Below, piece by piece: positions 11,063 through 61,700 of a stretch of 64,000 nt of DNA. Under the pieces are notes generated by a model that made no database searches, was not told where the DNA came from, and worked only from the letters and a program-made list of their open reading frames with translations. The position numbers were made by a program, and so were the translations under genes. Each line of letters opens with the position of its first letter. Positions within the stretch are counted from its first letter, which is position 1. This DNA is from Bryoerythrophyllum caledonicum (lineage: Eukaryota; Streptophyta; Bryopsida; Pottiales; Pottiaceae): assembly GCA_963971425.1 (NCBI GenBank), contig OZ020514.1, positions 23,781,406-23,845,405 on the forward strand. Reading direction: 5' to 3'.

Positions 11063-11975
11063 TGTTAAAGGGGGATTTCACCTCAAGATTAGGTGAAAGA
11101 CATTCTCTACGCTCATTCAAACAGGAGTTCCAAACCATAAGACACAAGTCAAGGATCCGACTTGTACTGAATCCAAAACCTCCGAATCGACCTAGATCTG
11201 AATCAAGATCTGAATTCAAGGTTAGTTGGGACTTCATTTCTGTGGTTTTTCTTACGTTTAATGCACAGATCTCAAGTTTCCGTACGCAATTACAGTAAAT
11301 CAGACCATACCCACAACATATCCGGACTTGATTCTAACTCTAACATGCTGGATTTGATGAAGGTTTAGTAGATCGAGCTAGATCTATACCAGATCTAGTG
11401 CATTTAGGCCAGATCTTCAATACCCACAACCAAATTACACTCAAACCCTCTTCTAACAACAAGATCTACTCACACATTCACAACACCAACATAAACACGC
11501 AAGATGTAGTATCCAATTCATGCTTTACTTCCTCAAACCTCCACAAATCTCTTCCATACTCTCTACAACTACAGATCCGCACATTTGCTCCAGATCCTAA
11601 CTCTCTAACCACACTTCTATACTCTAGTCTAACACATTACGAGCTCCACACACACACATACCAAGAGAGAAGAAGAGAGAATGGAATGAGCCTCCAAACC
11701 CAAGAAGGCGGCTCTCTATCCCCTCCAAACCCTAACATGCCCTAATGGATGAAAGATGTCCGGACAGTTTCATCCAAAGTACAGACAGTTCATCCACTGT
11801 CAACTCAGGACAGTTTCATCCATTGTCATTCAAGACAGTTTCATCCACTGTCATTCAAGACAGTTTCATCCACAGTCCTAATTCATCCACTGGTTTACTT
11901 TTTAACCATAACTACTTAGTAACTTCAAAAAATTACTACCGGGACCTTATAATAAGCCTAAATCTCCGGTTAACA
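11063..11975 (-). repeat. 3' LTR of Ty3 element B
   Basis: It is 913 bp long and aligns along its whole length with 32606-33513. It carries a short tandem array of GACAGTTTCATCCACTGTC-like units (11769-11895), one unit more than the partner LTR. On the element's minus strand it begins TGTTAACCGGAG. Confidence 0.93.
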
Positions 11976-32605: not shown

Positions 32606-33513
32606 TGTAAAGGGGGATTTCACCTCAAGATTAGGTGAAAGACATTCTCTACGTTCATTCAAACTGTAGTTCCAAACCATAAGACACAAGTTAAGGATCC
32701 GACTTGTACTGAATCCAAAACCTCCGAATTGACCTAGATCTGAATCTAGATTTGAATTCAGGGTTAGTTGGGACTTCGTTTCTGTGGTTTTTCTTACGTT
32801 TAACGCACAGATCTGAAGTTTCCGTACGCAATTACAGTAAATCAGACCATACCCACAACATATCCGGACTCGATTCTAACTCTAACATGCTGGATTTTAT
32901 GAAGGTTTAGTAGATCGAGCTAGATCTATACCAGATCTAATGCATTTAGGCCGGATCTTCAATATCCACAACCAAATTGCACTCAAACCCTCTTCTAACA
33001 ACAAGATCTACTTACACATTAACAACACCAACACAAACACGCAAGAGGTAGTATCCAATCCATGCTTTACTTCCTCAAACCTCCACAAATCTCTTCCATA
33101 CTCTCTACAACTACAGATCCGCACATTAGCTCCAGATCCTAACTCTCTAACCACACTTCTACACTCTAGTCTAACACATTACGAGCTCCACACACACACA
33201 TACCAAGAGAGAAGAAGAGAGAATGGAATGAGCCTCCAAACCCAAGAGAGCGGCTCTCTATCCCCTCCAAACCCTAACATGCCCTAATGGATGAAAGATG
33301 TCCGGATGGATGACATCCAAGTCCGGATAGTTTCATCCAAAGTACAGACAGTTCATCCACTGTCAACTCAGGACAGTTTCATCCACTGTCATTCAAGACA
33401 GTTTCATCCACAGTCCTAATTCATCCACTGGTTTACTTTTTAACCATAACTACTTAGTAACTTCAAAAAATTACTACCCGGACCTTATAATAAGCCTAAA
33501 TCTCCGGTTAACA
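32606..33513 (-). repeat. 5' LTR of Ty3 element B
   Basis: It is 908 bp and matches 11063-11975. Differences are scattered substitutions, one missing TTCATCCA unit, and a short extra GGATGGATGACATCC stretch near 33305. It would hold the promoter for minus-strand transcription. The right target duplication AGCCC follows at 33514-33518. Confidence 0.93.
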
Positions 33514-38850: not shown

Positions 38851-39200
38851 TAGATAGGGTGAATTTTGGTTCACAACCCAACTTGTAAGAATAACACTCT
38901 TCTCTTCTCCAAACCTTGGGCCTCGCTCACCATCCTTCGTGAAACTCTCCTACCTACCAAATCAGAGACTTCCCTCTCCCTCTTTCTACTTGCGAAAGCC
39001 ATCTCCTCTCTCTCCACCGTGGGTATGGACTAACAAGACTTATGGTTGAAAGACAAAACATATGGATTGTTGTAGTCTTGAACCCTCTCTTATACTATCC
39101 TCCCTACCCACCCACTAATTATACTTCACGCGCGTAGGTACATTGATTAGAGCCACCATAACACCAAGACTGATAGAATTAAAGGTAGATGCCACAGTCA
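38851..39200. other. Non-coding spacer
   Basis: CT-rich sequence (CTTCTCTTCTCC, CCTCTCTCTCC) with no coding or repeat signature that I recognise. The left edge of transposon E probably lies in or just after it. Confidence 0.35.
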
Positions 39201-39470
39201 TGAATGAACAACATGGTAGGCCACGCGTCAAGCGTCCTGCCGTAATGTGATGTGGGAAGTATAATCTCCGCCGCCAACCATCAGCATCACATTAATCATA
39301 AGAGGGAACTCGGATGACTGACATGAACTGTGTAATTGATCGCCCATTTTCATTTAGGCAGTGGCATTTCATAAATCTAAGAAAGAACCAGCCAAGAGAA
39401 TGCCCAAAAGGTCTCTGATATTTTGAAACAAGTTCCATCGAGAGATAAATTGCAGTATCGTAGTCAGTGA

Positions 39471-39875
39471 AGATCTCCGGATATGATACAATACTCTTAA
39501 AACACCTAGATACGCTCAAAATTGGGAAATGTGGACCCCATTGTTAAGAATGGTGGATGTGAATCTCCTATCCGGAGATCTTCGGCTAGATCTCACCGAC
39601 TTAAACATGGCAATACATGAACATCCTTCCGTCCACGAAATATGACTTCCATACCCGGAGATCTCCGGTAAGCTTTCTGAGAGACGTGCGGGTCTGAAAA
39701 TATTCCGGTGGCATAAACCAGTCAATAGTGATTCTGTCAATTCTCTATGTATCCTAATTACAGTGAATGGAAGAGCACAAATCCGGTTCCCTTCACGATG
39801 ACTGGCGAGAGTTGAAAGGAGGGATGTTGAATTCGGGACCAAATAATAATCGTCTTCTCAGCAGGAGATCTCTGG
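39471..39875. promoter_or_regulatory. Palindrome cluster downstream of the transposase gene
   Basis: One perfect CCGGAGATCTCCGG at 39655-39668. Variants: CCGGAGATCTTCGG at 39572-39585, CAGGAGATCTCTGG at 39862-39875, and a half-copy AGATCTCCGGAT at 39471-39482. They lie just beyond the 3' end of the minus-strand gene, towards the left edge of element E. Confidence 0.85.
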
Positions 39876-42020
39876 TGCTCTTCCGTGAGGACGTAGAGAC
39901 TCTACGAGATTTTCCACAAATAGAATTTCACACAATAGAATTTAAGATATTAAAACTGATCACCATATCAAGGATCAGCGGCATTCGCTTTCTCTAAGTT
40001 CACAAGCGCTGCTTCCTTCATTTTACGTGGAATAGACCTCGTAAGTTGGTTAGCTTTGCTTGACAAAGTCGCAAACAACACAAAACTAACATGACACCAT
40101 ACAGACTTCTTTTGGTCCGAAACCCAAGTGGCTTCCCAACAATCTTGGTACTTCCTCATCAGATTCTTCTGCTTGTTATCAGGCTTCCAATACTTAACGA
40201 GGAATTTTCCGTGGTTGACATTACCCTCATCCTTGACGACGTCCGAAACTGCTCTACCCTGCCAGACATGATAGATGTCTGGATCACTAGATCTAACTAA
40301 AATCCACGACCCGAGACGAATATCACGCCAAGGATTAAATGTGGACTTTGGGGCTTCATTGGCGGGTCCACAGTAAGGCTCGAGAACCTCATCTTTGGGA
40401 GTGACATCCAATGGTTGTGGAAGCGATCCTAGCGGATTTTCACCTCCTTCATGAGGGCCTCTCCAATCATGGGCATGCCAGAATCCCACTTTGAGTTTGG
40501 AGGGCGATTGAGGAAGTGGATTGTCAAGCTCGTCGATGACGTCCTTTCAGTACTGTAGATATGGGCGGATGGAGTCTGCGTACCCTGCGCACTTAGACAT
40601 TCCGGACGCCCAATAGTCCACGTACTTTCGAAGCCCCGTCTTTATGAAGTTTTTGTTCTCCGTCGCTTTTCTGGCCTTGTCTCTGGCAACATTTTGGTTT
40701 CCGACCGGGCTCTGCTCCTCATTACCCCATATGGGCTTGAAAGGAACGGGCTTGGGAGATCCTGTTGGAAGCATGGGACGTCCGCTGTCATCTACCTTCC
40801 AGAGTTTTATCGGCTCTCTGTTCATCGGTAACCACTCTGTGTCAACTGCAGATTTCTTGAGCTTCATGACCGGAACACCGTCATTGTCAACGTAGGATTT
40901 GAAAAGATGCATATCACTTAGTCCCACCAGACGTGTCGCCCCACTGCATTGGTAGCCATCGACTTACGATTTAAAGTCGGCCACCTCTTGGATAACTTTT
41001 GGCATGAAGGCTAGTTTTTGTGACTTCATGAATGCCTTCATCAAATCCGCTAGAATATATGTACTACTTTTCTTCAGTTCTTTCGATAGATGACTAAAGT
41101 AAGCATCAATATCTTCATGCGTATGTTTGACCACCAAGAAGCCAACCATCATCTCCTTGAAAACACATCGAGCTGTTAGCAGTGATAAGAATGCCATCAA
41201 GTATTGGTACTTTTAGTCCTTCGCTGAGTTGTCAAGCTGTAGAAATAATTTCGGTAGCAACGGTTTCGGTCTCTTAAACGCACTGGGCTCCACGGGCACT
41301 AAAGCGTCGACGCACCTGCTCTTTCCCCTCATGAGCGCCGCAAACATCGAGTTTGGAGGTGGGTGCTCGAAGAGCGCGCACGTCTCATGCAATGGTGCTC
41401 CCTCAAGCCGCCTAAAAAGTTTTGCCAAAGAGTATATAGAGGCGTTCGAATCTCCAGGCCATAAAGCAGGAGCATAGTGAGCATACGCTCCGTCGACATG
41501 ACCGTGTGCCACCATTCCGGTGACATTCATGGGAAGCTGTCCGAGACCAGACGTCGCCTTAGTAGTCCTCCACATGCGTGGCAGGGCCGTCTTCGCAGTG
41601 TCCATCTTATCGTAAATGACACAAAGAAAGGTCAGCGGCTTCGCCTTCGACTCCTCTCTCCATGTTGCATAAAGCTTCCGGCATGACTGTTGGTGATTCA
41701 AGCGAGCCTACTTGTTGCTATAGAATAGCTTATATGCGGGCGTTCCCTTTGGAGTTGTCAGTAAGAATTGATTAAACTCATCGCAAGTACTGCATTTTGC
41801 GAAGGTGCTACCAGATGGCTTAATAGCAAGATTCCCGAAGAATTCCTTTCTTACCCTACTAACTATGGACTGACTTACAGGAGGAAGAACGTAGGAGTCG
41901 TTTGTTTGAAAAATTAAATAATAACCTAGTAAGAGGAGAATTTCAGAAGAACAATCCAACAGACAGTGCGAAGTACAGAGTTAATCAATTGAAGGTCAAT
42001 GCATGTCGACGCTGACCCAG

Positions 42021-42034
42021 CCGAAGATCTCCAG
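42021..42034. promoter_or_regulatory. Palindrome variant in a transposase intron
   Basis: CCGAAGATCTCCAG, two mismatches from the 14-bp palindrome. It lies in the probable intron between the exons ending near 42110 and starting near 41933. Confidence 0.7.
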
Positions 42035-42987
42035 TTCAGAAACTAGGACTTCCGTCAACTAAGGAAGGAGATTACAAATCCATAGCAATATGCAGGGACT
42101 GACGTACATCATTGACACTGGCTCGAATTTGCTTCCAGTTGTTTCCCGCAGGAAGATACTTGAGAGTGTCAATCCGACCAATCCCGACATTCCGCATTTG
42201 ATGAGGCATTTGATCCGCGTTGTGATTAATAATGGACGTCATTAAACCCATCGCCTGTATAGTGGCAAGCCGTGGGCGCTTGATGCCCTTGTTACCGTGA
42301 GTTGCATTGATGATTCCTCTACTGAAATGTCCAATGTACGTGTGAAACGTGGACTTCCGAATTCCATGGATCGTGTACCATGCAACGGAGCAGACTTCCG
42401 TTCCCAAGAGCGTGACGTACTTTCTCTTCCGGTCCCCATCAATGCAGTGGAACTGCCCGCCTACCGAGATCGCATACTCCTTTCTGTCTTCAAAGGATTT
42501 GTCATAGAATTTCTGTCTAACAGAAAGAGTCTAGGATTGTTGAAAATATTGGCAGCATCGTTTGGGACAGCACCTTTCCGAGCCAACTTTGCAAATTTCG
42601 TCGTCCGTAGTCCTCTTGGTGTACAAGGATTCCTTCTTGTTAAGGTCTTGATGTCAGGAAATGAAGCGGTAAGGCTTCTTTGCACGACCCCCTAAATGAG
42701 CACTAGAATCAGGTTGTAGAGGCAGGGATGCGAAATGATCAATTGTGTTTTTCAAAGACCGCCTGGAAGGAAAACAACATTCAAGAATAGGCCACGATTC
42801 ATGACTCATAATTCTCTCCGTGTCCCCCACAAAAACGTCGAGGACAATAACACCAATATTATCTTCTCCTAAGCATCCACTTCGGAAATGATCCGATGGT
42901 AACGCGGCCATGATTCTCCCAGAGCAGTGCACCAACCCATTTCTGTCCAACCCATCGCTCTCGTGGTACGAATGGAGAGTCGTCGGA

Positions 42988-43001
42988 CTGGAGATCTCCG
43001 G
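42988..43001. promoter_or_regulatory. Palindrome variant in the first transposase exon
   Basis: CTGGAGATCTCCGG, one mismatch. It lies inside the open N-terminal stretch on the minus strand and is translated there. Confidence 0.75.
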
Positions 43002-43354
43002 TTGGAATCATGACATCCGCCCTTCTCCATAGGACGGTCCGCCGAAGTGTATGAATAAGTGAATCGTATCCGCGTTGCAAGGGAATGAGTGGTAATTCTT
43101 CTGCCGTGGACGTTATGGCCGTTGGTCTAAGTAATACGAACTCACTGGAACCGACTGGTATGTCAACTCCAAGCCATTGTCCCACGGGGTGAACCTCAAC
43201 AATGGACGCTTCTCCAATTTCGCTTGAACCTGGCCTCATAAGATTCACGGACATTCCTGACCACAGAACCTCCGACCTTCAAGTAGACCGTTGGGATGGA
43301 TCATCTTCACCCGTGTAATTCACATGTCCAAAATCGGGGCATTGAGGTGCGACC

Positions 43355-43513
43355 ATGGCAAGGTCTTCCGAGTCATTCTCCCGCCAATCTGAGTCATATT
43401 ACTCCCGTGCTGCATCGTTGAATGTTCAGTTGGTGGCTGCTGCCCTCAATGAGAAATTGAGTGCATGTAGAATCGAATTGGATGACCAACGTCAATATCG
43501 TCGGTTGGGCTAG
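43355..43513 (+). CDS. Possible small ORF, 52 residues
   Basis: A plus-strand frame from ATG at 43355 to TAG at 43511-43513 reads MARSSESFSRQSESYYSRAA at its start and continues with a helical, charged stretch (VAAALNEKLSACRIELDDQR). The stop abuts a perfect palindrome copy (43514-43527). It lies head to head with the transposase gene. It may be a small regulatory protein of the transposon, an exon of something larger, or chance. There is no homology I can name. Confidence 0.3.
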   Translation: MARSSESFSRQSESYYSRAASLNVQLVAAALNEKLSACRIELDDQRQYRRLG

Positions 43514-43810
43514 CCGGAGATCTCCGGCTGAGAGGAGAATGATCAACAACGACAACTTCTTGTTTAAGTAAGGAAGAGAAGGGTGGAGCTAAAAGTTCCA
43601 TTCGTATCTAACCGGAGATCTCCGGTTATATAGAACCAGGCTGGCCAGGAAACTTTCTATAAACATTCCACACTAGAGTAGCCGGAGATCTCCGGGGATC
43701 CTACGTTCGAAGAATATGACACCCACTGGATTCAAGGGTAGCAACCGTGGTTAGCAAGCGATCTTGGCAGAATCTAGACTAGCACAGCATGAACAGCCGG
43801 AGATCTCCGG
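43512..43810. promoter_or_regulatory. Cluster of four perfect palindromes upstream of the transposase
   Basis: CCGGAGATCTCCGG occurs perfectly at 43514-43527, 43612-43625, 43682-43695 and 43797-43810. Two copies extend further: AGCC..GGCT at 43512-43529 and TAACC..GGTTA at 43609-43628 (20-bp perfect palindrome). An inside-out relative, TCTCCGGAGA, is at 43979-43988. The cluster lies 260-560 bp before the transposase start, where operators or transposase-binding sites would be expected. Confidence 0.9.
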
Positions 43811-44870
43811 TTGGCTTTTGTTGTCTTGATCAAAACACCAGCCGTATGGAATATTCGCGGGTATAGTGGTGTGATTCAGTTGCAAAACCCGGTTAACAGT
43901 TGGGATTCACACGCCAAGATATGACGTCATCTTAATTCTCGAGTCGAATTAAAATACTGCTTCCGGGCTATGACTGTATCTCCGGAGACAAATTAGTTAC
44001 AGAATCACTACACGACAGCTCCCGATCGACTCAAAAGGCAGAATGCTAACACAATCTTCACCAATCCTCACAAATAGACAACAAATACGGAATTTTATGA
44101 GGAAACATGTTTAACATTCCTAGAATAATGTCGAATCGTTTTCCTACAGTCATCTAGCACGATGTCGCGCACGCGAACACTCTCACTGACTCACTTAGCT
44201 CCCAGAGCATCTCAAACCTCCAGAGCAAAAAAGGATGAGAGCTGATTTGAAAGATACTCTTATCAACCTTTCCATCAGCTCCTGGAGGGAAAATTTAGGC
44301 GCTCAAATTTGAAACGAATCTTGGACATGCATGCTCCTTCAAACTAACTGTTGTACACCATCATGATAGTGCGCATTCTTCGACGTGCCCACCACCGAGG
44401 CCACATTCCACTCATGATAATGAAAGGCTCGTACTCTTGGGATGGCCGTATTGTAAGGATACCATCTAGTTCCCAGAGTGCTGTAAATTAGAAAACGGAA
44501 GATGAAGTATGCCCCATGATGTATCTTTGAATATACTAGGGCCGTATCACGTCTTAGACTAAATCACCGTATAATGTAATCATATTGGACTTCTCGTACT
44601 CACCTTCGTGAATTAAATTATACCCGACCCAAGGAAAGGAGTCGACGTTCTGCTGCCTACTAGTATTGTTCATCTCGCATTACAAAACTCAAGTAGAACG
44701 TCGGCATTTGTTACCAATTAGAATAATCTCCAATATTTCCTTGTTTGACAGAAGTTATATGGATGCTTGAGAAGATACGTGCATAAAAAATTGAGCAGAT
44801 GCTTTTAGAAGTACACAACCCAGTCCTATGAATTCGGGTACAACTTTCGTGTTCAGGCTGGATTGTGCAT
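43811..44870. other. Central spacer of element E, left part, no gene
   Basis: No frame longer than chance and no domain seen on either strand. Composition is balanced, unlike the AT- and purine-rich blocks to the right. Confidence 0.5.
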
Positions 44871-44985
44871 CACGGTTTAGGGTTTAGGGTTTAGGGTTCC
44901 TAGTTCACTGTTTGGAATTGAAGGTTAAGAGTTCAGGGTTCACGGTTCACCGTGCAAGGTTTTGGGTTCATGAAGATCGAGGACT
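44871..44985. repeat. Short interstitial telomere-like run
   Basis: About three tandem TTTAGGG units lie at 44875-44898, followed by degenerate GGTTCA/GGGTTC units to about 44975. TTTAGGG is the plant telomere repeat. The run is too short to be a chromosome end. Confidence 0.85.
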
Positions 44986-45189
44986 TATATCACCTATAAA
45001 TCTATAAATTAAAATTATTTTATAACTATGAACTATAACCTTAAATGTATCAATAACTATAACTTAAAAAAAAATTGGATACAATAGTGTGTAAGGAAAT
45101 TAAGCGAGAATTGAACAATAACTATTTATTTTGATACATTATAATTTAGTTAGAGGGAGAATAAGGAAGAGAGGGAGGATAATGGATTT

Positions 45190-45470
45190 AATTTTAGAGT
45201 AGACAAGTTGTTGGCGCTTGCTTTGCAATGCATTAGCCCAACCATTGTTATCTATTTTTAATATTAAAAAGTATTAAAAAATGAAAGGTGGAATGGTTCA
45301 CTATATTGTTGACAACGCGGTTGACTGTAGCGTTTTTGTAGTTCACTGCATGGTTGACTACGCGATAGTTCACTCCGTGGTTTACTACGCAAATTATGAT
45401 TTTAGTAGTATGACTAGGAGTTGGCGCTTGGTTTGCAACGCAATAGTTCAACCATTTAAATGTAGTTTTT
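45190..45470. repeat. Direct repeat pair and 24-bp minisatellite
   Basis: GTTGGCGCTTG(C/G)TTTGCAA(T/C)GCA begins near 45210 and again near 45420. Between them about four diverged units of GTTCACT...TGGTTGACTACGCG run from 45294 to 45390. No gene is seen. Confidence 0.75.
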
Positions 45471-45594
45471 GTATCACAAAATATTTAAGAAAAAAGGTAA
45501 CAACAATCTACATAAAATATAAATATATCTTTGAAACCTACGCATTAATTTTAATAATGTAATAGAATAGAATAGAAGAAAACATACTATTACA

Positions 45595-46450
45595 ATGGTT
45601 GAATATTATTAACTAAAGATGGAGATTGAGAAGGAGGCGAGAGTAAAACTAAAATAAATAAAAAAACAAGTAGGAGGGAGAGTAAGGGAGGGAGAGTAAG
45701 GAAGAGAGGGAGAGTATGAGAGGGAGAGACTTGAGGGATTTATTTTTAGAGTAGTTTATATTTTTAGAATATGTAAAAAGAGGAATCTAAAAAGAAAATC
45801 AAATGTAAAAAAGAGATGGGGAGGGAGAGTAAGGAAGAGAGGGAGAGTAAGGGAGGGAGAGTAAAGGATAGGAAGAGTAAGGGATAGGGAGAGTAAGGGA
45901 TAGGAAGAGTAAGCAAGGAAGAGTGCGGGATTGCTTTTTAGAGTAGTTAATTATTTTGAGAATGTGAATTTATTGAAATAAAGGGAAATCCAAAAAATTA
46001 AAATTCAAAAGTAAAATAGAGATGGAGATGGAGAAGGAGGGGAGAGTAAAACTAAAATAAGTAAAAAACAAGTAGGAGGGAGAGTAAAGGAGGGACATTA
46101 AGGAAGAGAGGGAGAGTAAGAGAGGGAGAGACTTGAGGGATTTAATTTTAGAGTAGTTTATATTTTCAGAATATGTAAAAAGGGGAATCTAAAAAAAAAT
46201 CAACTGTAAAAATGAAATGAGGAGGGAGAGTAAGGGAGAGGAAGAGTAAGAGAGGGAGAGTAAGGGAATTTTTTTAGAGTAGTAAGTTAATTTAAGAATA
46301 TGTAATTATTGAAATCACGGGGAGTCTAAAAATATTAGAATCAAGAATAAAAAAGAGATGGAGATGGAAAAGGAGGGGAGAGTAAAACAAAAATAAGAAA
46401 AACAAGTGAGGCAAAGAAGGGAGGGAGAGTAACGGAAAGGGAGATTAAGC
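45595..46450. repeat. Purine-rich ~340-400-bp tandem repeats (GGGAGAGTAA-rich)
   Basis: Three long units start with AGATGGAGAT(G/T)GAGAAGGAGG near 45618, 46018 and 46357. Within each are many GGGAGAGTAAGGGA words and a TTTTAGAGTAGTTTATATTTT segment. The plus strand is almost pure purine for long runs, which can favour triplex or R-loop formation. Confidence 0.85.
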
Positions 46451-47151
46451 TTTTTCACTTATGTCGTTTTAAATTCAAATATAATGATTACTATAATACC
46501 CGGTGAACCCGAGTATCTACTCTAGTCATATGTAATACCTATGAAAGTGACGGACTTTTAGCATACCTTCAAGAGGTTGTTTCCTGGATATAGACTTAAG
46601 GTCGGAGAGCAGGACTGAAACAAAGCGATTGAATTAGGAAGAAATTTGAAGAGCGCCTAGGTTCACCAGCACAGAGCGAATGACGCTACGATTGAGGGTG
46701 GCGTCGACACGAACGACCACGACGTACGGGTGCGCCGATTCGGCAAGTGAAGAGGTATGTAACGTCTCAAAAATGGCTTTCACTATTATTGCAGTCGAAT
46801 TTTCTCAGGACTGCTTAGAATCGTTACTGGAGCAGGTGTAGGGTTCGGTAAGCTTCATTAGGGTTCGAGAGACTCGAATAGTACTGATATTGTTAATCGT
46901 TTGAGCGGAATTGTAGAATTTAGGGTATAGGGTTCTGGTGTTTTGTACATTCAGTTTAGAAGGGCCGTAAATGAGCATTTTATGCAGTGTTGAAATTTTT
47001 TCCGCCGAATTCTTGTCAATCAGAACTGGACCTTATATTCTAGGGCATCTGAGTAATTGTAGAGTTTGTAGTTCTAAGTTGTTGAATGTTGATGTACTAC
47101 AAAGCTGTGTATACGCTTTGATCTAGAGCTATTCCTGGAGGAGGTTGGAAA
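46451..47151. other. Spacer upstream of the ParB-like gene
   Basis: Likely promoter region and 5' UTR. One GTTTAGAAGGG-type word is present but no clear TATA box. No coding is recognised. Confidence 0.4.
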
Positions 47152-47201
47152 ATGGCGACTACAGCAGGGACGTCGAGTGAGACTTCGTGGCATGGAAACC
47201 A
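47152..47201 (+). CDS. Possible first exon of the ParB-like gene
   Basis: ATG at 47152 opens a short frame (MATTAGTSSETSWHGN) followed by a good donor CCA|GTAAGT at 47202. The next acceptor candidate is TTCAG ending at 48005, directly after a palindrome copy. The phase does not match the main frame cleanly, so this exon is tentative. Confidence 0.3.
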
Positions 47202-47760
47202 GTAAGTCCAATATTGAACTGATTATGCTCAGTGCAAGCAACCGGGTGGGGTTCCATTTTTTGAGTGAGTTTCGAATTAGTTCAATTGTTACCGAGCGGG
47301 CGAACACTTGAATGATTAAGAGAAACCTCAGAAATTGCGTACTAGAATTCAGATGTCTGTTTGGCTATAGTCGATTGGTTTTTTGTTGTCCCGTGAACAT
47401 AATTGTATATCTATTCATGTATATGCGTGTGATTTAGGTATTCTATGAACGTTTGAATGTGTTTGTCCATACTGAGTCTTTCGAGTCCGTTCCAATTCAA
47501 TGTGAAAAGGGTAATCCATGTAGAATCGTCACATTTGGCATTCCATCAAAACATTTTCGGATTGTATTTCTTGTGTGTAAGGTCGAGTTTTGAAAGAATT
47601 GTGTGAGCTTTTGATACATTTATTTGTGTTCTCTATTATGTAACTTGTTTTGTGAGTATGTCAAACTTCCTGAGTTATATGTCAAACTTCTATGTGAATG
47701 ATTGAGAATAAATGCGTGATGATCTGATGCGATTAGTGCTATGTAAAGCCGTACTTGCTG

Positions 47761-48089
47761 CAGCCGGAGATCTCCGGCTGTATCCCAAATTGAATACGGA
47801 GTTCCAATATTCAGCCGGAGATCTCCGAAGATCTCCGGATGATGTCGCGGTCTTATGAATCTAAAAAGCCTATATATGCGTTAGTAATTCTCGGAAATAG
47901 CCGGAGATCTCCAGATGTTTTGAAGCAGTGGAGTTACGCGTTGATGGACATGTAAATATCGGGAACCTCTACTTCGGGGTCATCAACCGGAGATCTCCGG
48001 TTCAGGACAGAAATGGATCCGTCTGAGCAGCAAGGATTCGTTCCTGGACAGATGCACTCGACTTCCACAAATCAGCCGGAGATCTCCGG
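47761..48089. promoter_or_regulatory. Palindrome cluster upstream of the ParB-like gene body
   Basis: Perfect copies lie at 47764-47777 (extended to a 20-bp palindrome CAGCC..GGCTG, 47761-47780), 47987-48000 and 48076-48089. Variants are at 47815-47828 and 47825-47838, overlapping by four bases in one double site, and at 47901-47914. This mirrors the cluster upstream of the transposase. The copy at 47987 touches a probable splice acceptor. Confidence 0.9.
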
Positions 48090-49546
48090 ATACTTTCGTG
48101 ATGGGCTCGAACGAAATAGAACTTCACATTGAAGACCGGATAATTGCAGTGATTTCTAACTGCTTGTGTGTTCTTTCGAAATCATCTTGGAGGGATTCGT
48201 GGACATCTACACTTCCGACTAAATGTCGTCCCGGGAAACTTGGGGCGTTTGTAGAGTATTGGCTCCCTGAGTTTTTCTATAGAGGGATTCACAATGTCGG
48301 CTACGTATACATATGCCGAAGGAGCATGACCAAGTGGGGCATCAAGCTCATTAAAACCCCTGAAGGAGCCTAGGAATTCGTCCCTCAGCTTCGGATTGGC
48401 AAACAGGGACACCCCGACATTGGCCTCCAGGTTCTAGAGATGCAGGGTCTTGATGACGAGGTCGGTCTCGTTGTCGTCCAGGAGAACGTGGACTCATCCA
48501 TTGAGCCTCTCATATACGGCTTGATCTTAGAATCATCTAAGATTTTGGATGCGATGGTGGAGACTTGCCAGAATGAGAACTTTTTATATGCCCCGAAAGT
48601 CCCGAAAGCCCCGAAAGTCCCGAAAGCCCGTTCCGGACCCAACTCCCAATCTGTCTCTAGTACCAGCTTCGAGCCCGGCAAGAAAACACAAGACCATCTT
48701 AAAGACTTCGACCCCGGGTTCCTCGTAGCGGGCAGAGAAGGGGAAGAAAGCGAAGGCCGATGACCCTAGCCTCGCGATCGAACAATGCCTGAACTTCACA
48801 CAGGCTGACCTCACCAAAATGAAGCGGACTGAAGTGGAAGCAATTGGCAAGGTTCTCGACGACGCGTTCAAAAACATTTACATACTCAAGAATAAGCCTT
48901 TGACAGTAGGAGACCCTGTCACGAAGAAGGATGTCGTGAAGCTCGTTCATTTTGATAACCTGCACCGGGCCCCGAGTGGAGGATTAGTATACAGGGGCAT
49001 CCAGAAAGAACGGCTTGAAGGAATTATCAACGCAGTTCGCGCGTCCTCGAAGGCCACGGCACCTGAGATTCACATTTGAGTCCTGCCACTGAAAAAGAAA
49101 CCTAAAGGAAATAAGGTGGAGTTCTTCGCGACCAAGCCGACAAAGGAGGATTGCCTAAGGGACTCGACACACTTTTACATTATTGGTGGTCAACATACTG
49201 TGGAGGCGCACAGGGTTTTGTCACACGAATTGCCATCAACGTGGACGCTCGAAGAGATCTCCTACTTTCCCATCATCCCGGTTTGGACAAAACCGAACCC
49301 CAAAGACATGACCCTCCTACAACTCTCGCGCGCTTTCAACCAAGATCTGACGGGTCTGCGGAAGGAGCACAGTTTCACAGAGCAGCTGCAAACGTACCGA
49401 GTGAAGTGGTTTGAGTTCGGAAAACCTGCCCCCTAACTGTATGGTTGTCCACAATCTGACGCATTCTCGATAAGCTTACATTCTCAACCTGAATAGATTT
49501 TAATTCCGTCGATGCGCTCATTCTTCACAGCAACCAAACCAATCAA

Positions 49547-49560
49547 CCGGAGATCTTCGG
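49547..49560. promoter_or_regulatory. Palindrome variant in a ParB-gene intron
   Basis: CCGGAGATCTTCGG, one mismatch, lies in the probable intron just upstream of the acceptor at 49592. The same variant occurs at 39572. Confidence 0.75.
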
Positions 49561-50969
49561 CTGCTTACACCCTCTAATTTTTCTAATTACAGACGTTCCA
49601 ACGGCAAGCGGTGCCAACAATTTTCACACACCTCGGTAAAACGGACCCCAAAGACGCGAAGGTCCCTCTCCTATTCGAGATAGATGATGCGGTGGTCCAG
49701 AAGTGGATCCGAATTGACAGGATGTTCGTCGCTGGACTCCTACCAGACTCGAACGGGAAGACGGGACCCAGCTAAGCTGAAGCGGAAACCTCTGGTGCAG
49801 AACAACTTCAAGCCACTTTACAAAATGCGCGCTGAAGACCTAGACTACCTCACGGACTTAGTGCTCGCGAAGAAGGTCTGTGTGAAGTCCTCCAAAGCGG
49901 CGAACCAAGGTACTATGAAAGGGCAGGCGGAGACTCTCAAAAACGCTGCGAATAGGGAGAAGAGAATCCGGGCAATGAAGAATGAACTCATGTTAAATTA
50001 CAAGTCGCACCCCCTTCCCTTGAAGTCTGCAGACTTCGTCCCATACACGAAGGAGCAGTGGAACGCATTTGCCAAAGAGAGGAATATTGGACGGGTCCAA
50101 CTCGAGTCCTGGATGGACGCCGCTAATTACTCTGCCAAGGGTAAAGCTTGGCTTCAGGGTCGACTGAAGGCGATTATCAAGGAGACCGACTCCACCCCAG
50201 ACGTCCTTGTGTCCATTTGGAGTCAACACATCATTGAAGATTCTGCCAAGGCCACACCCATTCTGCCGAGGCCACACCCACGGATGACACCTCCCTGTTC
50301 GACTCCAAATACACCTGCAGGGTTATGCCTGACAGAGGGGGCGAGATCGCCAAAGTACTTATCGTGCCGGACATTCAGCAGTGGCGTAACGTCACTGACC
50401 CTCACTTTTACTTCTTTTTCCTCTATCGCGTGAAAGACGACATATGCCGTGCACAGGTTCTGGATGCATTGGACTTCAGAACCATTTTCGACCATCTCGA
50501 AGTGAACACGAAGGACGGGCGGACGAGGGTCAAATCACCGTCGGTTCTTATTACCGACGTCGCGGGATACATTGAATTGAAGAGGTACATCACTCTTCGG
50601 CAGAGAGAATCCAGAGGCAAGGTGAAATTGTGGGCAACACATGTGGTCTACTACTTCCCCCACCCAAGTGATGGATTTCCGATTCTAGTAATCTGGGTCG
50701 AGGAGACAGTATACTGCGTATTCCTATATGAATACAATTCAATTGAGACGCCTGCTCAGTCATTCAAGAGGCTCTTCAAAGGACACCCCGAAAAAATGCC
50801 GGCCTTCTTTTCAGCCGCTCAACATCAAGAAACCATCCAGCGCTGGAAGCAAACCGGTGTCCCACAGCTGAGGATCTCGGTCCTCGATTTGTTGTTCACG
50901 GGATACATCAGAGAGGGTATGGTGGTCGTCAATGTTCATGGAAAATCACATTTAACATACCTCGGCTTG

Positions 50970-51070
50970 GTAAGCAGGACATCCTTCCCTAGCAATCCAA
51001 CGTCAAAGTTTTCCAGTCCGAATACAGTTATATGTTTTGGATGACGCCTTACTCATGTTTGTTTTTGCAG
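50970..51070 (+). other. Intron in the ParB-like gene
   Basis: Donor TTG|GTAAGC at 50970 and acceptor GTTTTTGCAG| at 51070 join the frame ending YLGL with one starting THDARVLEIV in phase. Length is 101 bp with a T-rich acceptor tract, typical of plant introns. Confidence 0.7.
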
Positions 51071-51313
51071 ACTCACGACGCGCGGGTCCTCGAGATTGTG
51101 AACAGCGAAGATGCCAAACTGAAGGCCGAATCCTGCGCAAAACAAATATTTAAGTACCACTTGAATACCTTAGCCGATGTTACCAATGCCGTTGCCGAGG
51201 AGGCAGAGGAGACTGACATCACTCGGTCGATCCCAAGCGCTGGGATTCAAACACGGGCAGTGTCGAGGAAGAACTACACCGTTGAGGTATAACGCCTATG
51301 GAAACTACCAGAC

Positions 51314-51327
51314 CCAGAGATCTCCGA
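51314..51327. promoter_or_regulatory. Palindrome variant just after the ParB-gene stop
   Basis: CCAGAGATCTCCGA, two mismatches, 22 bp after the TAA at 51290-51292. It is the rightmost copy seen. Confidence 0.65.
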
Positions 51328-51392
51328 ATGTTCATACGATTCGAATGCCCTCCATACTTCAGGACTCTTTTTTATCATTGCCATGTTCAATT

Positions 51393-52145
51393 TTAGTTCG
51401 TCCGGTAGAATGCAAGTTCCTTGAATTCCTTGAACTTCTCAAGGCACTCCCCCTTCGTCTTCAATGTGTATAACCACACCTTCCTTGAATAGTCATCGAT
51501 GAAGGTCACAAAGTACCTTGCACCACCCATAGACATCGTCCTCATCGGACCGCACACATCCATATGCACAATCTCCAAGGACTTGGTGGCACATGTCCCT
51601 CCATCCTTTGGAAATGGGATCTTATGTTGCTTGCCTTCAACACACCCTTCACAAAATGAGATAGACAAGTCATCCTTGCCAAGGGTCATCCCACTTACCA
51701 TGGTTTGAAGAAAGCGCACACTCCTCACATTCAAATGTCCAAGTCGACGATGCCAAAGCTCCATTGCACCATTGTTCGTTGATGATTGTGCTACGATAGC
51801 CGCATCCGCCTTGTCCACGTTTGTGAAGGTCACTTGGTACAAGTTCGCTTCACGGGGTGCCACAACAAGTACAACTCCATTCGATGCTTTCAATGTACAC
51901 CCATTTACATTGAATTGCACCTTCACTCCACTTGACACAAGCTTGCTCACCGAGAGCAAGTTTGCTTGCATCTTGGGCACATGAAGGACTTCGTTGATGG
52001 TTATGTTCCTTGGACGCCCTCCAACAAGTACTTCCACAACAATGGATGCGACTCCAATGGCGATGACGACGCTATCATCACCCAAATGCACATTGTGTGA
52101 TGGAATTACCTCGTATGTGTCGAATGCCACCCTATGTGGTGTCAC
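51393..52145 (-). pseudogene. Copia pol start: protease end, GAG-pre-integrase, integrase core start
   Basis: A 250-residue stretch contains INEVLHVPKMQANLLSVSKL (end of the copia protease region), the integrase zinc motif HRRLGHLN ... CEGCVEGKQ, and the opening of the core with the first catalytic Asp, HMDVCGPMRTMSMGG, then FVTFIDDYSRKVWLY. The rest of the integrase and the RT are not in this copy. Confidence 0.88.
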
Positions 52146-53027
52146 GTGTTTTGTCGCACCTTAATCCCAAGATCCACTTGCACTTGCACATGGTCTTGAA
52201 ATAAGGCCCATCTTGGGTTGTAAACGCGTAGTCATCATCGTCCTTTGCATGGTTGCCACCTTCCTTCTCTTTTGCTTGGTTTAAGTTGTCGCGCTCCCAC
52301 TTCTTCAGTTTGAAGCAATTTCGAGCAAGGTGGCCCGGTTTGCCACAATTGTAACACAACCTGCGCTCTCCACGTAATGATGAGCAACCCCACTTGATTT
52401 ACCTTGAAACCAAGGCCGCATCATTGCCATGAACCTCCCTCTCCTTGCGTTTCGACACTTCGTGCATCATTCGCAAGGTAACAAACTCCATGGGAAGGTC
52501 CTGGAATCTCAATGCCTCCAAGGCCGTGATCAAGCTCTCAAATGATGGCGGCAAGCTCTCAAGCAACGTCATGACGATATCTTCATCTCTTACGGGGACT
52601 TCCAAGCAATTAAATTGATCCGCAAGCTCCTTCACTTTGTTGATGTTTGTTAACATGTCATCACCTTCTTGCATCTTGATGGTAAAGAACTTACGGCGAA
52701 TGAAGAGGATGTTGGACAAGCTCTTGGTTTCGTGGATGTTGCACAACGTCTTCCATGCTTCCGCCGATCCTTTGCAACTTCTCATGTGGGCAAGTTGGTT
52801 GTCCGCCAAATTGAGCCCGATGACGTCATGGCTTTTTTGGCACGTCGATTGTAGTCCTTCACCACCATGGGATCGTCATCCTTGGCAGGAAGGCCGTCGG
52901 TGCCCTCCACGATCTCCCAAAGGTCCATGGACTCCAACACCATCTCAATCTTGAACTTCCAAAGGCTAAAGTTCTCACCTTTGAACTTGTCAATGGTCCT
53001 AGCACTCTCACTCTCAAATGAGGCCAT
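52132..53027 (-). pseudogene. Copia gag (copy 2)
   Basis: Starts MASFESESARTIDKFKGENF with the LWKFKIEMVL block, continues MRSCKGSAEAWKTLCNIHET, and ends with the CCHC knuckle CYNCGKPGHLARNC and an Asp-rich tail. It is the most complete of the three gag copies in the window and serves as the reference for the split copy at 10668/33514. It is fossil. Confidence 0.85.
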
Positions 53028-54122: not shown

Positions 54123-54452
54123 TAATTGTTTGGAGGTCCCCGTAACAAATGAAGATATCATCATGATAATGATTGGGAGTTTGCCGCCATCTTTTGAGAG
54201 CTTGATCATGGCCTTGGAGGCATTGAGATTCCAGGACCTTCCCATGGAGTTTGTTACCGTACAAACGATGCACAAAGTGTCAAAACGCAAGGAGAGGGAG
54301 GTTCATGGTGATGATGCGGCCCTAGTTTCAAGGCAAATCAAGTGGGGCTGCTCATCATCACGTGGAGAGCCCAAGTTGTGTGACAATTGTGGAAAACCGG
54401 GCCACCTTGCACAAAATTGTTTCAAGCCGAAGAAGTAGGAGCGCGACAACTT
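54123..54452 (+). pseudogene. Copia gag fragment (copy 3), truncated by assembly gap
   Basis: Starts abruptly at NCLEVPVTNEDI and runs through SKRKEREVHGDDAALVSRQ to the knuckle CDNCGKPGHLAQNC. It contains the intact AGCCCAAGTTGTG site that the 22.45-kb Ty3 element split in copy 1, so it shows the empty target. It ends at the run of N. Confidence 0.85.
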
Positions 54453-54652
54453 NNNNNNNNNNNNNNNNNNNNNNNNNNNNNNNNNNNNNNNNNNNNNNNN
54501 NNNNNNNNNNNNNNNNNNNNNNNNNNNNNNNNNNNNNNNNNNNNNNNNNNNNNNNNNNNNNNNNNNNNNNNNNNNNNNNNNNNNNNNNNNNNNNNNNNNN
54601 NNNNNNNNNNNNNNNNNNNNNNNNNNNNNNNNNNNNNNNNNNNNNNNNNNNN
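54453..54652. other. Assembly gap, 200 N
   Basis: Exactly 200 undetermined bases, a scaffolding placeholder. Gap size and contents are unknown, and the two sides may not be true neighbours. Confidence 0.99.
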
Positions 54653-56120
54653 CACCTACATACAATATAAAGTCCATTGTTGCATACAATACACCTACAA
54701 TCAAAGATATGACCAAAAAATTGATTCAAAATCCTAAAATACTATAATTCATTTAAAATTTCCAAAAATAATGTTCAAACAATCCAACATATAAGCTTCA
54801 TACAATCTCAACAACACGTACAACTTTGAAAAAACATTGAATGAAAAAGGTCTCACCAAATACACATGAAGAATGATCAAAGTCCCCCCACCACGCACAC
54901 TCCACGACAAAAGACTCACAAGCTAGAACTTATGTACATGTTGTCCTTCCTTGCTCCATGTACCCTCAAATCCGAACTCCCAGAAAAGACCGGTTATGGT
55001 GTGGTGCGTTCACATTGTTTGGGATTTTTACCCACTTAGATAACTCATGGAAGGAGGTTTACAATGACTGGCTCGAATCAGGCCCGTCGTTCACATCATA
55101 TGCGGCATCGTGTCTGATCCAAAGGCTGTTGTGGGTGACGGAGATGGGGCCTGCCAGCCTGCCATTCATAAAAGTTGCCTCAATCGGGCTCCCAGAAGTT
55201 GCCATGTGCTCGCAGCTAGTGATGTTCAGCCGAGGGCTTGCTTCGCACCTCAATCCATTACTGAAAGGTCGTAGGCAAAATCTGCAAGACGGGAGGCTGG
55301 GACGGAGGATGGGCGGGAGGTGGGAAACAAGGAAGGAAAAGGCTTGGGAACAAAGCCAGATGGAACCACAATCAACGGAGACGAGAATTGGCCATCATCC
55401 ATCATCGGTTGGCTCAACAGGGGTATTCTTTACAAAATTTGAACCGTGTCATGTTCAAACACAGTACTATGCATATTAAAAACATTACCAATTTCTAATT
55501 TATAAAGCATGTTGTACATGGAATAAAATACCCCATGTTATTGGTGCAAAGCTCAGTCTCTACAGATAGCATTGTACTCGTGTTTTCTTATCAGATTGTT
55601 GAGGTCACAAACGAACCGACATGGACTAGTTGTTAGAGGATTTGTAGCAGACGGTCATTGATATGAGCAATATCAAACTATGTATGACTAACTAAAAAAT
55701 GTATTAAAGTGTAGCAAGGCTTACACCTTTGGATTGAACATTCTTCAACTAACATCTTTCATTGCGTGTTTCCGTGCTTTGGATTGCCAAAATTTGAGAA
55801 TATTTAATCCAAATAGAGACTAGATGCCATATTGAACTAAATATAATTCATGTTATACTCTGTCAACAATAGAAGACCACACAATGAAAGAACACACATG
55901 AAGACCATGATAACTTTGAAGAACTAAATTACTTATGTGCACTTCCTATTATACTTTACGATTGTAGTAGGAATAGACCATAAAATGAGTGTTTGTATTT
56001 TTTCTTGTATCTTCTGAGACAAGACCATGGAAAATTGGCTACAAATACACAAGGATGCGATATTTAAGTAAAAATGGACTATGGAATGAAATGTGGACTT
56101 TGAAATCCGGACTTTGCTAC
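54653..56120. other. Gene-poor stretch with one possible conserved exon
   Basis: Mostly AT-rich. On the minus strand at 55059-55270 one frame reads ITSCEHMATSGSPIEATFMN and later LWIRHDAAYDVNDGPDSSQS, which looks protein-like rather than random, but I do not recognise it and it is short. The plus-strand frame 54958-55479 is probably its shadow. Nothing else is supported. Confidence 0.3.
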
Positions 56121-58140: not shown

Positions 58141-58400
58141 CATCTTGCGACTAGACTATCAACTGATCTCGCGTCAGTTTAGTATCACGTAGAAGTGTTG
58201 TGACCATATCATCCACATTACGGGACATCGCACAACTACATTTGCATTTTGATCGACCCTTTGTGCACATAAGTATCACTTACCTAATATAGGAGGGGAA
58301 AACCCTTCACATCAAGAGGTCAAAATCAAGAAAAAGAGGTCACGTGACCGGGAGCGGCGGACAGACAGACTGACGCCTATTATATAGGTAGATGTTTATA
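58141..58400. other. Non-coding spacer
   Basis: Nothing recognisable beyond the continuation of the FCP1-like frame. It leads into the AT-rich repeat array. Confidence 0.4.
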
Positions 58401-59635
58401 AATATCCAACATACAACTAAACATACATAGATGTTATATATATATATATACAACATACAATTATATCTCCATTCGATTTATATCTAGTATTTATACAACA
58501 TACACATATATTTCCATCCATTTTGTACATATATACAACATACAATAACTATTTAATGATAGAGTTTATGTAGTTATAGAAGAAGAAGAAGAACGCCTGT
58601 CCCGAAGGGACCGGCGTCAATAGAGTGTCTATTAACACTACCACTAAGACCATGCCCGCCAAGCAAGGAATTAGTAGTATGGGGCTACTTCCCCCTCTCG
58701 AGGGTAGACACTATACAAACACAGATGTTGTATATATATATTATACAACATACAATTATATCTCCATACGATTTATATCTATTTATACAATATCCAATGA
58801 TACATACATACATTTTGTACATATATCCAACATACAATAATTATATATCGATACATGCATACATTTTGTACATATACACAACATACAATAATTTTATATG
58901 TTTATATATATCCAACATACAACTATACATTCACAGGTGTTACATATATTTATATATATACAACAAACATCTGTATCTCGATACAATTTATATCTTTATA
59001 TACTACATACAATGATACATGCGGTATTCATTTTGTACATATAAACAACATTCAAGTATTTTATATCGATACTATTTTATATGTTTATAAATATCCAACA
59101 AACAACTAAACATACGTAGATGTTATATATTTATATAGAACATACAATTATATCTCCATACAATTTATATATAGTATTAATACAACGTACACTTACATTT
59201 CCATACATTTTGTACATATATTCAACATACAATAATTATTTATTGATAGAGTTTATGTAGTTATAGAAGAAGAGGAAGAACGCCTGTCTCGGAGGGACCG
59301 GCGTGAATAGAGTGTCTATTAGCACCACCACTAAGACCATGCCCACCTGGCAAGGAATTAGTAGTATGGGGCCATTTCTTCCTCTCGAGGGTAGACACTA
59401 TAAAAACACAAATGTTGTATATATATATATATATATCATACAACATACAATTTTATCTGCATACTATTTATATCTATTTATACAATATCCAATGATACAT
59501 ACATACACTTTGTACATATATCCAACATACAATAATTATATATCGATACATGCATACATTTTGTACATATATACAACATACAATAATTTCATATGTTTAT
59601 TTATATCCAACATACAATTGGACATACATGGATGC

Positions 59636-59671
<36 letters not shown>

Positions 59672-61700
59672 AGAGAACTATATTTGGATACGATTTATAT
59701 CTATTTATTCTACATTCAATGATACATGCGGTATACATTTTCTACATATAAACAACATACAAGTATTTTATATCGATACTATTTTATATGTTTATAAATA
59801 TCCAACATACAACTAAACATACATAGATGATATATATATATATATATACAACATACAATTATATCTCCATACGATTTATATCTAGTATTTATACAACATA
59901 CACTTATATTTCCATACATTTTGTACATATATACAATAAACCATAATTATTTAATGATACAGTTCATGTAGTTATAGAAGAAGAAGAAGAACGCCCGTCC
60001 CGAAGGGACCGGCGTCAATAGAGTGTCTATTAGCACTACCACTAACACCATGCCCGCCAAGCAAGGAATTAGTAGTTTATGGCCATTTCCCCCTCTCGAG
60101 AGAAGATACTATACAAACACAGATGTTGTATATATATATTATACAACATACAATTATATCTCCATACGTTTTATATCTATTTATACAATATCCAATGATA
60201 CATACATACACTTTGTACATATATCCAACATACAATAATTATATATCGATACATGCATACATTTTGTACAAATATACAACATACAAGAATTTTATATGTT
60301 TATATATATCCAGCATACAAGTATACATACATAGATGCTACATATATACATATATATATACAACATTCAACTGTATCTCGATACAATTTATATCTATTTA
60401 TACTACATACAATGATACATGCGGTATACATTTTCTACATATAAAGAACATACAAGTATTTTATATCGATACTATTTTATATGTATATAAATATCCAACA
60501 TACAACTAAACATACATAGATGTTATATATATATATATACAACATACAATTATATCTCCATACGATTTATATCTGGTATTTATACAACATACACATATAT
60601 TTCCATACATTTTGTACATATATACAATATACAATCATTATTTATTGATAGAGTTTATGCAGTTCTAGAAGAAGAAGAAGAAGAACGCCCGGCGTGAGGG
60701 ACCGGCGTGAATAGAGTGTCTATTAGCACCACCAGTAAGACCATGCCCACCAGGCAAGGAATTAGTAGTATGGAGCTAATTACTCCTCTCAAGGGTAGAC
60801 ACTATATAGACACAAATGTTGTATATATATATCATACAACATACGATTATATCTCCATACGATATATATCTATTTATACAATTTCCAATGTTACATACAT
60901 ACGTTTTGTATATATATACAACATACAATAATTATATATTGATGGAGTTTATGTAGTTATAGAAGAAGAAAAAGAAGAACCCCGTTCCCGGAGGGACCGG
61001 CGTGAATAGAGTGTCTATTCGCACCATCACTAAGACCATGCCCACCAGGCAAGGAACTAGTAGTTTGGGGCTACTTCCCCGTCTCGAGAATAGACTCTAT
61101 ACAAACACAGATGTTGTATATATATATCATACAACATACGATTATATCTCCATACGATTTATATCTATTTATACAATGTTCAATGATACATACATACATT
61201 TTGTACATATATAATACATACAATAATTATATATGGATACAATTTATATATATTTATATACAACATACAACTATACATACACAGATGTTACATATATATA
61301 TACAACATACAAATATATCTCCATACGATTTATATCTTTTTATACTACAAACAATGATACATACATACATTTTGTACATATATACAACGTACAATAATTT
61401 TATATGTTTATATTTATCCAACATACAACATTACATACACATGTTATATATATATATTTATATATATATATACAACTGGCAATTGTATCTTGATACGATT
61501 TATATCTATTTATACAACATACACTTATATTTTCATACACTTTGTAGAAGAAGAAGAAGAACGCCGATCTCCGAAGGAGGCTGGCGTGAATAAAGTGTCT
61601 GTTCGTTTCACTACTAAGACCATGCCCACAGGACAAGGAACTAGTAAGCTGGAACTACTTCCCTCTCTCGAGGGTAGACACTATGTAACAAGAAGCCAAA
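58400..61700 (-). repeat. Tandem array of LINE 3'-tail-like units with AT-rich spacers
   Basis: Six cores of about 150 bp begin with a GAA run at 58579, 59264, 59976, 60668, 60960 and 61547. Each has AACGCC..GGGACCGGCGT, AATAGAGTGTCTATT, CCATGCCC.CC..GCAAGGAATTAGTAGT and CTCGAGGGTAGACACTAT. Spacing is about 690-710 bp for the complete units. Spacers are made of degenerate 40-45-bp units with ACATACAATTATATCTCC and CATTTTGTACATATAT words. The last core sits directly behind the stop codon of the LINE ORF at 61834, so the cores are copies of that LINE's 3' end. The open frames across the spacers are repeat artefacts. Confidence 0.85.
58593..58617 (-). other. Conserved hairpin of the LINE tail cores
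   Basis: ACGCC (58593-58597) pairs with GGCGT (58613-58617) and GTCCC (58599-58603) with GGGAC (58607-58611), with a 1x1 mismatch between and a 3-nt loop. The same structure is at 59280-59304, 59991-60015 and 61561-61587. In the last copy the inner arm has changed to CTCC/GGAG, keeping pairing. Copies near 60685 and 60979 are degraded. On the minus strand the hairpin is followed by (TTC)n, the layout of LINE 3' ends recognised by their own reverse transcriptase. Confidence 0.75.

Follow-up and report, generated by a model that had tools for sequence, protein, structure and literature searches.

A conserved array of palindromic sites in a giant transposon of the moss Bryoerythrophyllum caledonicum

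A 64-kb stretch of the genome of the moss Bryoerythrophyllum caledonicum (contig OZ020514.1, hereafter the window) contains a decayed copy of a giant transposon with terminal inverted repeats (TIRs), in which many copies of a 14-bp palindrome, CCGGAGATCTCCGG, are gathered around two divergently transcribed genes that encode a transposase and a protein with a ParB/Srx fold. The array is accompanied by a common gene set in other copies of the element, all 50 of the individually listed genomic sites are confined to such copies, the sites are constrained, and another palindrome, similarly arranged, is found in a distant family of this genome. It is proposed, with moderate confidence, that the palindromes form a self-recognition array for one of the element's own proteins, most likely that with the ParB-like fold, which would work in the manner of VANC anti-silencing.

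Results

Palindromic sites are concentrated in the noncoding DNA of the element

Eight perfect copies of CCGGAGATCTCCGG begin at positions 39655, 43514, 43612, 43682, 43797, 47764, 47987 and 48076, precisely where the initial annotation had placed them from the sequence alone, and not one perfect copy arose in 100 dinucleotide shuffles. When imperfect sites are scored across the window at up to three mismatches, the interval 39467–51327 holds 18 sites (8 perfect, and 6, 3 and 1 with one, two and three changes, respectively), which agrees with the former count of at least 17 (17 to 18). As also claimed, no full copy is present elsewhere in the window; the remainder contains three weak sites (5464, 6803 and 14134), with 1.97 expected for the window as a whole.

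The sites follow the structure of the two genes. Four (39467, 39572, 39655 and 39862; interval 39467–39875) are located 3′ of the transposase gene, one is found in its intron (42021–42034), and four perfect sites (43514, 43612, 43682 and 43797; interval 43514–43810) precede its start. Six sites (47764, 47815, 47825, 47901, 47987 and 48076; interval 47764–48089) are located 5′ of the ParB gene, one in intron 1 of this gene (49547–49560) and one directly past its exon 3 (51314–51327). The sole coding site, at 42988–43001 in exon 1 of the transposase gene, encodes the peptide TGDLQ. The other 17 of the 18 sites are noncoding, in a region where the coding model accounts for 6081 of 11861 bases (binomial p = 5e-5), in agreement with the earlier description of sites in front of both genes, in introns and at gene ends.

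The flanks of different sites share a mutual identity of 25% (16 window sites). Spread of the site by duplication of a longer unit was thus rejected for family I, the family of the window copy, and the same low identity does not support copying as a source of the sites, which had been suggested initially. C>T and G>A account for 13 of the 15 core changes in the window copy, a bias that would fit the decay of methylated cytosines.

The array recurs in full-length copies of one element

In a scan of the genome (437 Mb, 894 contigs), exact CCGGAGATCTCCGG occurs 2718 times, compared with 3 occurrences of a reversed control pattern. The listed sites, which are the first 50 in the order of the genome, fall without exception within four copies of one element (16 in copy A, 16 in copy B, 7 in copy C and 11 in copy D). 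The initial annotation had called for such a scan and had named an even spread through the genome, or an array missing from other copies, as outcomes that would speak against its reading; as far as the 50 listed sites go, neither is seen.

Copy A is an entire element of 17,769 bp with an imperfect TIR of ~29 bp. Both genes are present in copies A, B and D; in copy C, which is truncated, the search gave no ParB-like match. Among 15 sequences examined, the seven copies with both ends recognised measure 16.9–17.8 kb, and all seven are bounded by an exact 4-bp target-site duplication (TSD) that is different each time. By eye, copy B additionally shows the duplication ACAA. At up to two mismatches, 13 of these 15 sequences carry 21–23 sites, 12–16 of them perfect, while the truncated copy C carries 11 and the window copy 17; the array was found in every element copy fetched. 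A 761-bp end probe gave 304 candidates, and the best 40, which were scored, are all 98–100% identical. Because of this identity and the open frames in many listed copies, the family is considered young outside the window copy. A phosphatase domain of the NIF/FCP1 type (PF03031, 4.1e-13) is encoded 3′ of the ParB gene in copy A (G000:C1:1562959-1563678, minus strand; L121 2959-3678), and a Pfam scan of element pieces detected no methyltransferase in the pieces scanned.

Four terminal sites, at element positions 222, 394, 17392 and 17629 of copy A, carry CCGGATATCTCCGG or its complement. This variant is conserved in copies A, B and D, with an extra change at one site in A, and may represent a separate class of sites, perhaps for the transposase.

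The sites change more slowly than their surroundings

For the analysis of constraint, sites were picked in copy A and change was measured between copies B and D, so that the choice of sites does not favour the result. Between B and D, 13 of 321 bases of the 14-mers are changed (4.0%), compared with 237 of 1494 bases in the 40-bp flanks (15.9%; Fisher p = 7e-10); the values for other noncoding DNA and for coding DNA are 12.7% and 9.0%, respectively. The same trend, with sites below flanks, is observed when copy A is compared with B, with D and with the window copy (W). Among young copies (A versus four E copies), 0.9–1.6% of site bases and 2.1–2.4% of flank bases are changed, a small gap that fits change mostly after insertion. 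By these comparisons of sequence, the sites of the array are under selective constraint and evolve roughly fourfold more slowly than their flanks.

Between B and D, this conservation ends at the edge of the 14-mer, and offsets 1–3 diverge by 11–20%, like ordinary flank. The initial annotation had described longer palindromes whose flanking arms changed together. Between subfamilies, joint variation of both arms is seen at offset 1 in 3 of 23 sites, and no site shows it at offset 2 or 3. Nor do the three outer positions of the window copy pair better than in shuffled sequence (p = 0.39 for the 18 sites, p = 0.08 for the 8 perfect ones). In the window copy, 29 of 36 half-sites have A as their second outer base, which favours some preference beyond 14 bp. 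The longer palindromes with paired arms are not clearly a selected feature. What stands of the original interpretation, with strong support, is an element-specific, multi-site transposon array, as seen in the 50 listed sites, in every fetched copy and in the slow change of the sites; compensating arms and copying do not.

A distant family carries a different palindrome

P0001, a relative of the ParB-like protein of the window, was searched against the moss genome, and the best 91 of 1406 candidates were scored and sorted into three groups by frame length and identity. Group II (L151 and L152), with which copy D goes (91%), retains CCGGAGATCTCCGG, with 9 and 7 perfect sites, respectively. Group III occupies seven places among the matches listed, and two copies were fetched (L149 and L150). 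Its ParB gene is 43–44% identical to P0001, the downstream parts of this gene are ~41% and 28% identical to those of the window, the NIF domain is 42% identical, and the gene order is alike. The NIF domain is encoded in L149 and L150, as well as in L152 of group II.

No family-I site was detected in L149 or L150 at up to two mismatches. Each of these copies has 18 sites of another palindrome, TCGTGAGATCTCACGA, at up to four mismatches, three of them perfect: nine precede the ParB start, the intron that follows exon 1 has two, one is close to the end of the gene, and others surround NIF. In 20 Markov shuffles of L149, 0–4 such sites arose; the window has none at up to three mismatches, and stretches of families I and II have 0–1 at up to four. 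The group III half-site reads TCG(T/G)G(A/G)GA, in which six of the eight positions agree in 34–36 of 36 cases. The palindromes of families I and III have a common centre, GAGATCTC, and different arms. In L149, four of the sites (1910–2234) are exactly 108 bp apart and form a small tandem array, as VANC targets do.

Traces at the protein level hint that the array is older than family I. Two metagenome relatives, P0024 and P0025, keep AGDLR at the position of window site 42988, and a read-through intron of P0024 encodes QPKIFGC, the peptide expected from a site variant, CAGCCGAAGATCTTCGGCTGC; the window has a site in the same intron. In the other 79 relatives, such traces did not go beyond chance-like matches, and no related DNA was confirmed in viral contigs or prokaryote genomes. 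As a control, at least 120 viral loci with a perfect site hold 1–3 sites each (at up to two mismatches), and none of them encodes a relative.

Genes of the window copy and surrounding features

The transposon remnant spans 38881–51409 and is reversed relative to copy A, as determined with blastn against copies A, B and D. Relative to the full element, ~0.9 kb and ~3.1 kb are missing at its ends, including the region 3′ of the ParB gene with the NIF phosphatase, and the remainder is ~10–20% diverged from copies A, B and D. Because the copy is truncated, no TIRs above shuffle level are found within the window. Neither the truncation and decay of this copy nor the related family with another palindrome had been noticed in the initial annotation. 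Its right break abuts a Copia fragment; this fragment, at 51.4 kb, was considered as the host of the element and rejected, as its other half is not seen at the left flank.

Both genes of the window copy are decayed by stops and frame changes. Exon 2 of the transposase gene (39971–41911, minus strand) encodes a DUF7869 domain of the DDE/RNase H fold (PF25273, 2.1e-36; 61.5% to P0003 by tblastn) and has 4 internal stops, with the frame open in copies A and C. Exon 1 (42105–43362, minus strand; 61–74% to P0024 by tblastn) has 3 stops and a frameshift near 42950. On the plus strand, exon 1 of the ParB gene (48215–49436, 3′ limit approximate) was delimited by tblastn to P0001 and has stops and a frame change, where other copies have open frames of 590 residues. 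Exon 2 (49590–50971, plus strand) has two frame changes and is 85–89% identical to copies A, B and D, which have 0–1 stops; it contains no Pfam family above the cut-off. Exon 3 (51071–51292, plus strand) was placed by comparison with the same three copies.

The window looks eukaryotic and plant-like from its retrotransposon pieces, its introns and the relatives of the transposase in the mosses Physcomitrium and Ceratodon. A giant long terminal repeat retrotransposon occupies 11066–33513, where direct repeats (11066–11975 and 32608–33513, 94% identical) bound a 22.4-kb unit with reverse transcriptase and gag matches on the minus strand. It sits in a Copia-like gag sequence, the two halves of which overlap by 5 bp. 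Inverted copies of a Copia-like gag fragment (54123–54452 and 52283–52612) adjoin a 200-base run of N at ~54454–54653, and 58389–61684 is an AT-rich tandem array with several overlapping periods.

Discussion

Roughly twenty sites in promoters, introns and gene ends would be bound by a dimeric protein encoded by the element, most likely the ParB/Srx-fold accessory protein. Binding would keep both genes expressed against host silencing, or mark the chromatin of the element, and every transposon family would retain a separate palindrome that suits the protein it encodes. We infer binding by a protein, the ParB-like protein as its reader and an anti-silencing outcome. The dyad symmetry of the sites implies a dimeric reader, their distribution along gene structure and not at the ends fits regulation better than strand transfer, and their confinement to the element, together with the different palindrome of a distant family, fits a reader that the element itself carries. 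The fold model of P0001 matches ParB, Noc, PadC and sulfiredoxin, above unrelated rows. Pfam and NCBIfam report no ParB family in P0001 or P0002, and phmmer matched P0001 to no PDB chain.

VANDAL elements are Mutator-type transposons. In Arabidopsis, VANDAL encodes its own factor, VANC, and short motif copies are found in introns and in intergenic and terminal noncoding DNA; the motif, YAGTATTAY, is non-palindromic, its targets form tandem repeats, and related VANDAL families have different motifs, according to the excerpts of the two sources (PMC5735166, PMC10398659). As far as those excerpts describe it, the VANC21 layout resembles that of the moss element, in which 17 of the 18 window sites are noncoding (PMC5735166). 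The moss element differs in its 14-bp palindromes with unrelated flanks, and the tandem-repeat feature is absent from family I (25% flank identity), in contrast to the four evenly spaced sites of group III. By analogy, the element would work like VANDAL/VANC without being a member of it.

Accessory genes of the ParB type are already published for giant Sola-1 elements (PMC12477816). According to the excerpted text, Sola1-1_Ec32 of Ectocarpus is a 21.5-kb Sola-1 DNA transposon whose ParB-like accessory gene is fused to a DNA methyltransferase and runs in the direction opposite to the transposase; the authors raise the possibility that proteins of this kind bind the transposon that encodes them and modify it (PMC12477816). 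Binding sites are not named in that excerpt. The moss element is likewise a giant transposon with a ParB-like gene opposite the transposase; unlike Sola1-1_Ec32, it has a NIF phosphatase downstream, and no methyltransferase in the pieces scanned with Pfam. This suggested binding makes the ParB-like protein the better candidate for the reader, and the Ectocarpus parallel with the VANC21-like layout leads to the proposal of self-recognition that results in anti-silencing or marking. Sola elements are described in the excerpted source with TIRs of 11–1124 bp and, for some, lengths above 15 kb (PMC10741241). The 4-bp TSD, the DDE fold of the transposase, the ~29-bp TIR and the size of the moss element all fit, and its placement as Sola-like is based on these features and the Ectocarpus parallel. 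A literature search within one library found no report of binding sites for ParB-type accessory proteins of giant transposons, and nothing on DUF7869 or on ParB with moss transposons.

Several observations weigh against a ParB-like reader and its self-recognition role. With Foldseek alone, the ParB model gave no PDB match at E <= 0.001; its mean pLDDT is 64, and no DNA-binding domain was identified in the protein, of which the model comprises the part without the downstream exons. The GERR and ENxQR motifs of the ParB CTPase clamp are needed for CTP binding; at what we take, by eye, to be the equivalent places, the alignment has GGQHT and RxLNQD. The confinement of the family-I site is seen for 50 of the 2718 copies only. 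The two group III copies show no slowing (9 of 324 site bases and 30 of 1040 flank bases changed), and since they are 97% alike, they cannot test selection on TCGTGAGATCTCACGA sites. No DUF7869 match was found in the 9.5-kb group III stretches examined, and by its sequence the distant family differs in other proteins too, so that the switch of palindrome does not single out the ParB gene.

The sites could also be targets of the transposase or of a partner that resembles TNPA, and act in transposition through end synapsis or through repression or timing of the transposase's own promoter. TNPA of En/Spm is an element-encoded factor, as the candidate here would be, and it has many short sites confined to the ends. 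Although sites are present near both ends of full copies and the four terminal CCGGATATCTCCGG sites could be a separate transposase class, this explanation is considered rather unlikely: of the 23 sites in copy A, 18 are separated from both termini by over 1.4 kb and occupy promoters, introns and gene ends, whereas known subterminal transposon motifs are confined to ends. Recruitment of a host protein as activator or insulator would account for the promoter-proximal clusters at both genes. It is, however, improbable, since the 50 listed of the 2718 sites are all within the element, and host genes therefore seem hardly to use the palindrome; the distant family, moreover, has another one. Bacterial ParB–parS systems combine the ParB/Srx fold with palindromic sites, and the moss element does the same with its multiple perfect palindromes. 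An array that nucleates a sliding ParB clamp and thereby helps an excised circle to be retained or replicated is nevertheless very doubtful in this eukaryotic transposon, given the apparently altered CTP-binding motifs (compared by eye) and sites that track gene structure, which partition would not need. Finally, the evenly spaced sites of L149 are what a functionless repeat spread by tandem duplication, slippage or gene conversion might leave, an origin that is barely credible in view of the unrelated flanks of family I and the fourfold slower change of its sites.

A self-recognition array read by the ParB-like protein could, more tentatively, be part of a wider pattern. Giant eukaryotic transposons might have made a code for self and other out of parS-like palindromes and a ParB fold of prokaryotic type. 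Each family would have a private palindrome (the common GAGATCTC centre with family-specific arms) and a ParB-like protein that reads it, by which epigenetic marks are escaped or set, and the specificity would switch as families split. The candidate sites are base-exact, under measurable selection and present in thousands, and one genome offers both them and a naturally changed palindrome; the question of how selfish DNA distinguishes itself from its host thereby becomes testable. If ParB-like proteins do read these sites, sequence-specific self-recognition of the VANC type would have arisen a second time, with a fold familiar from bacteria as its basis.

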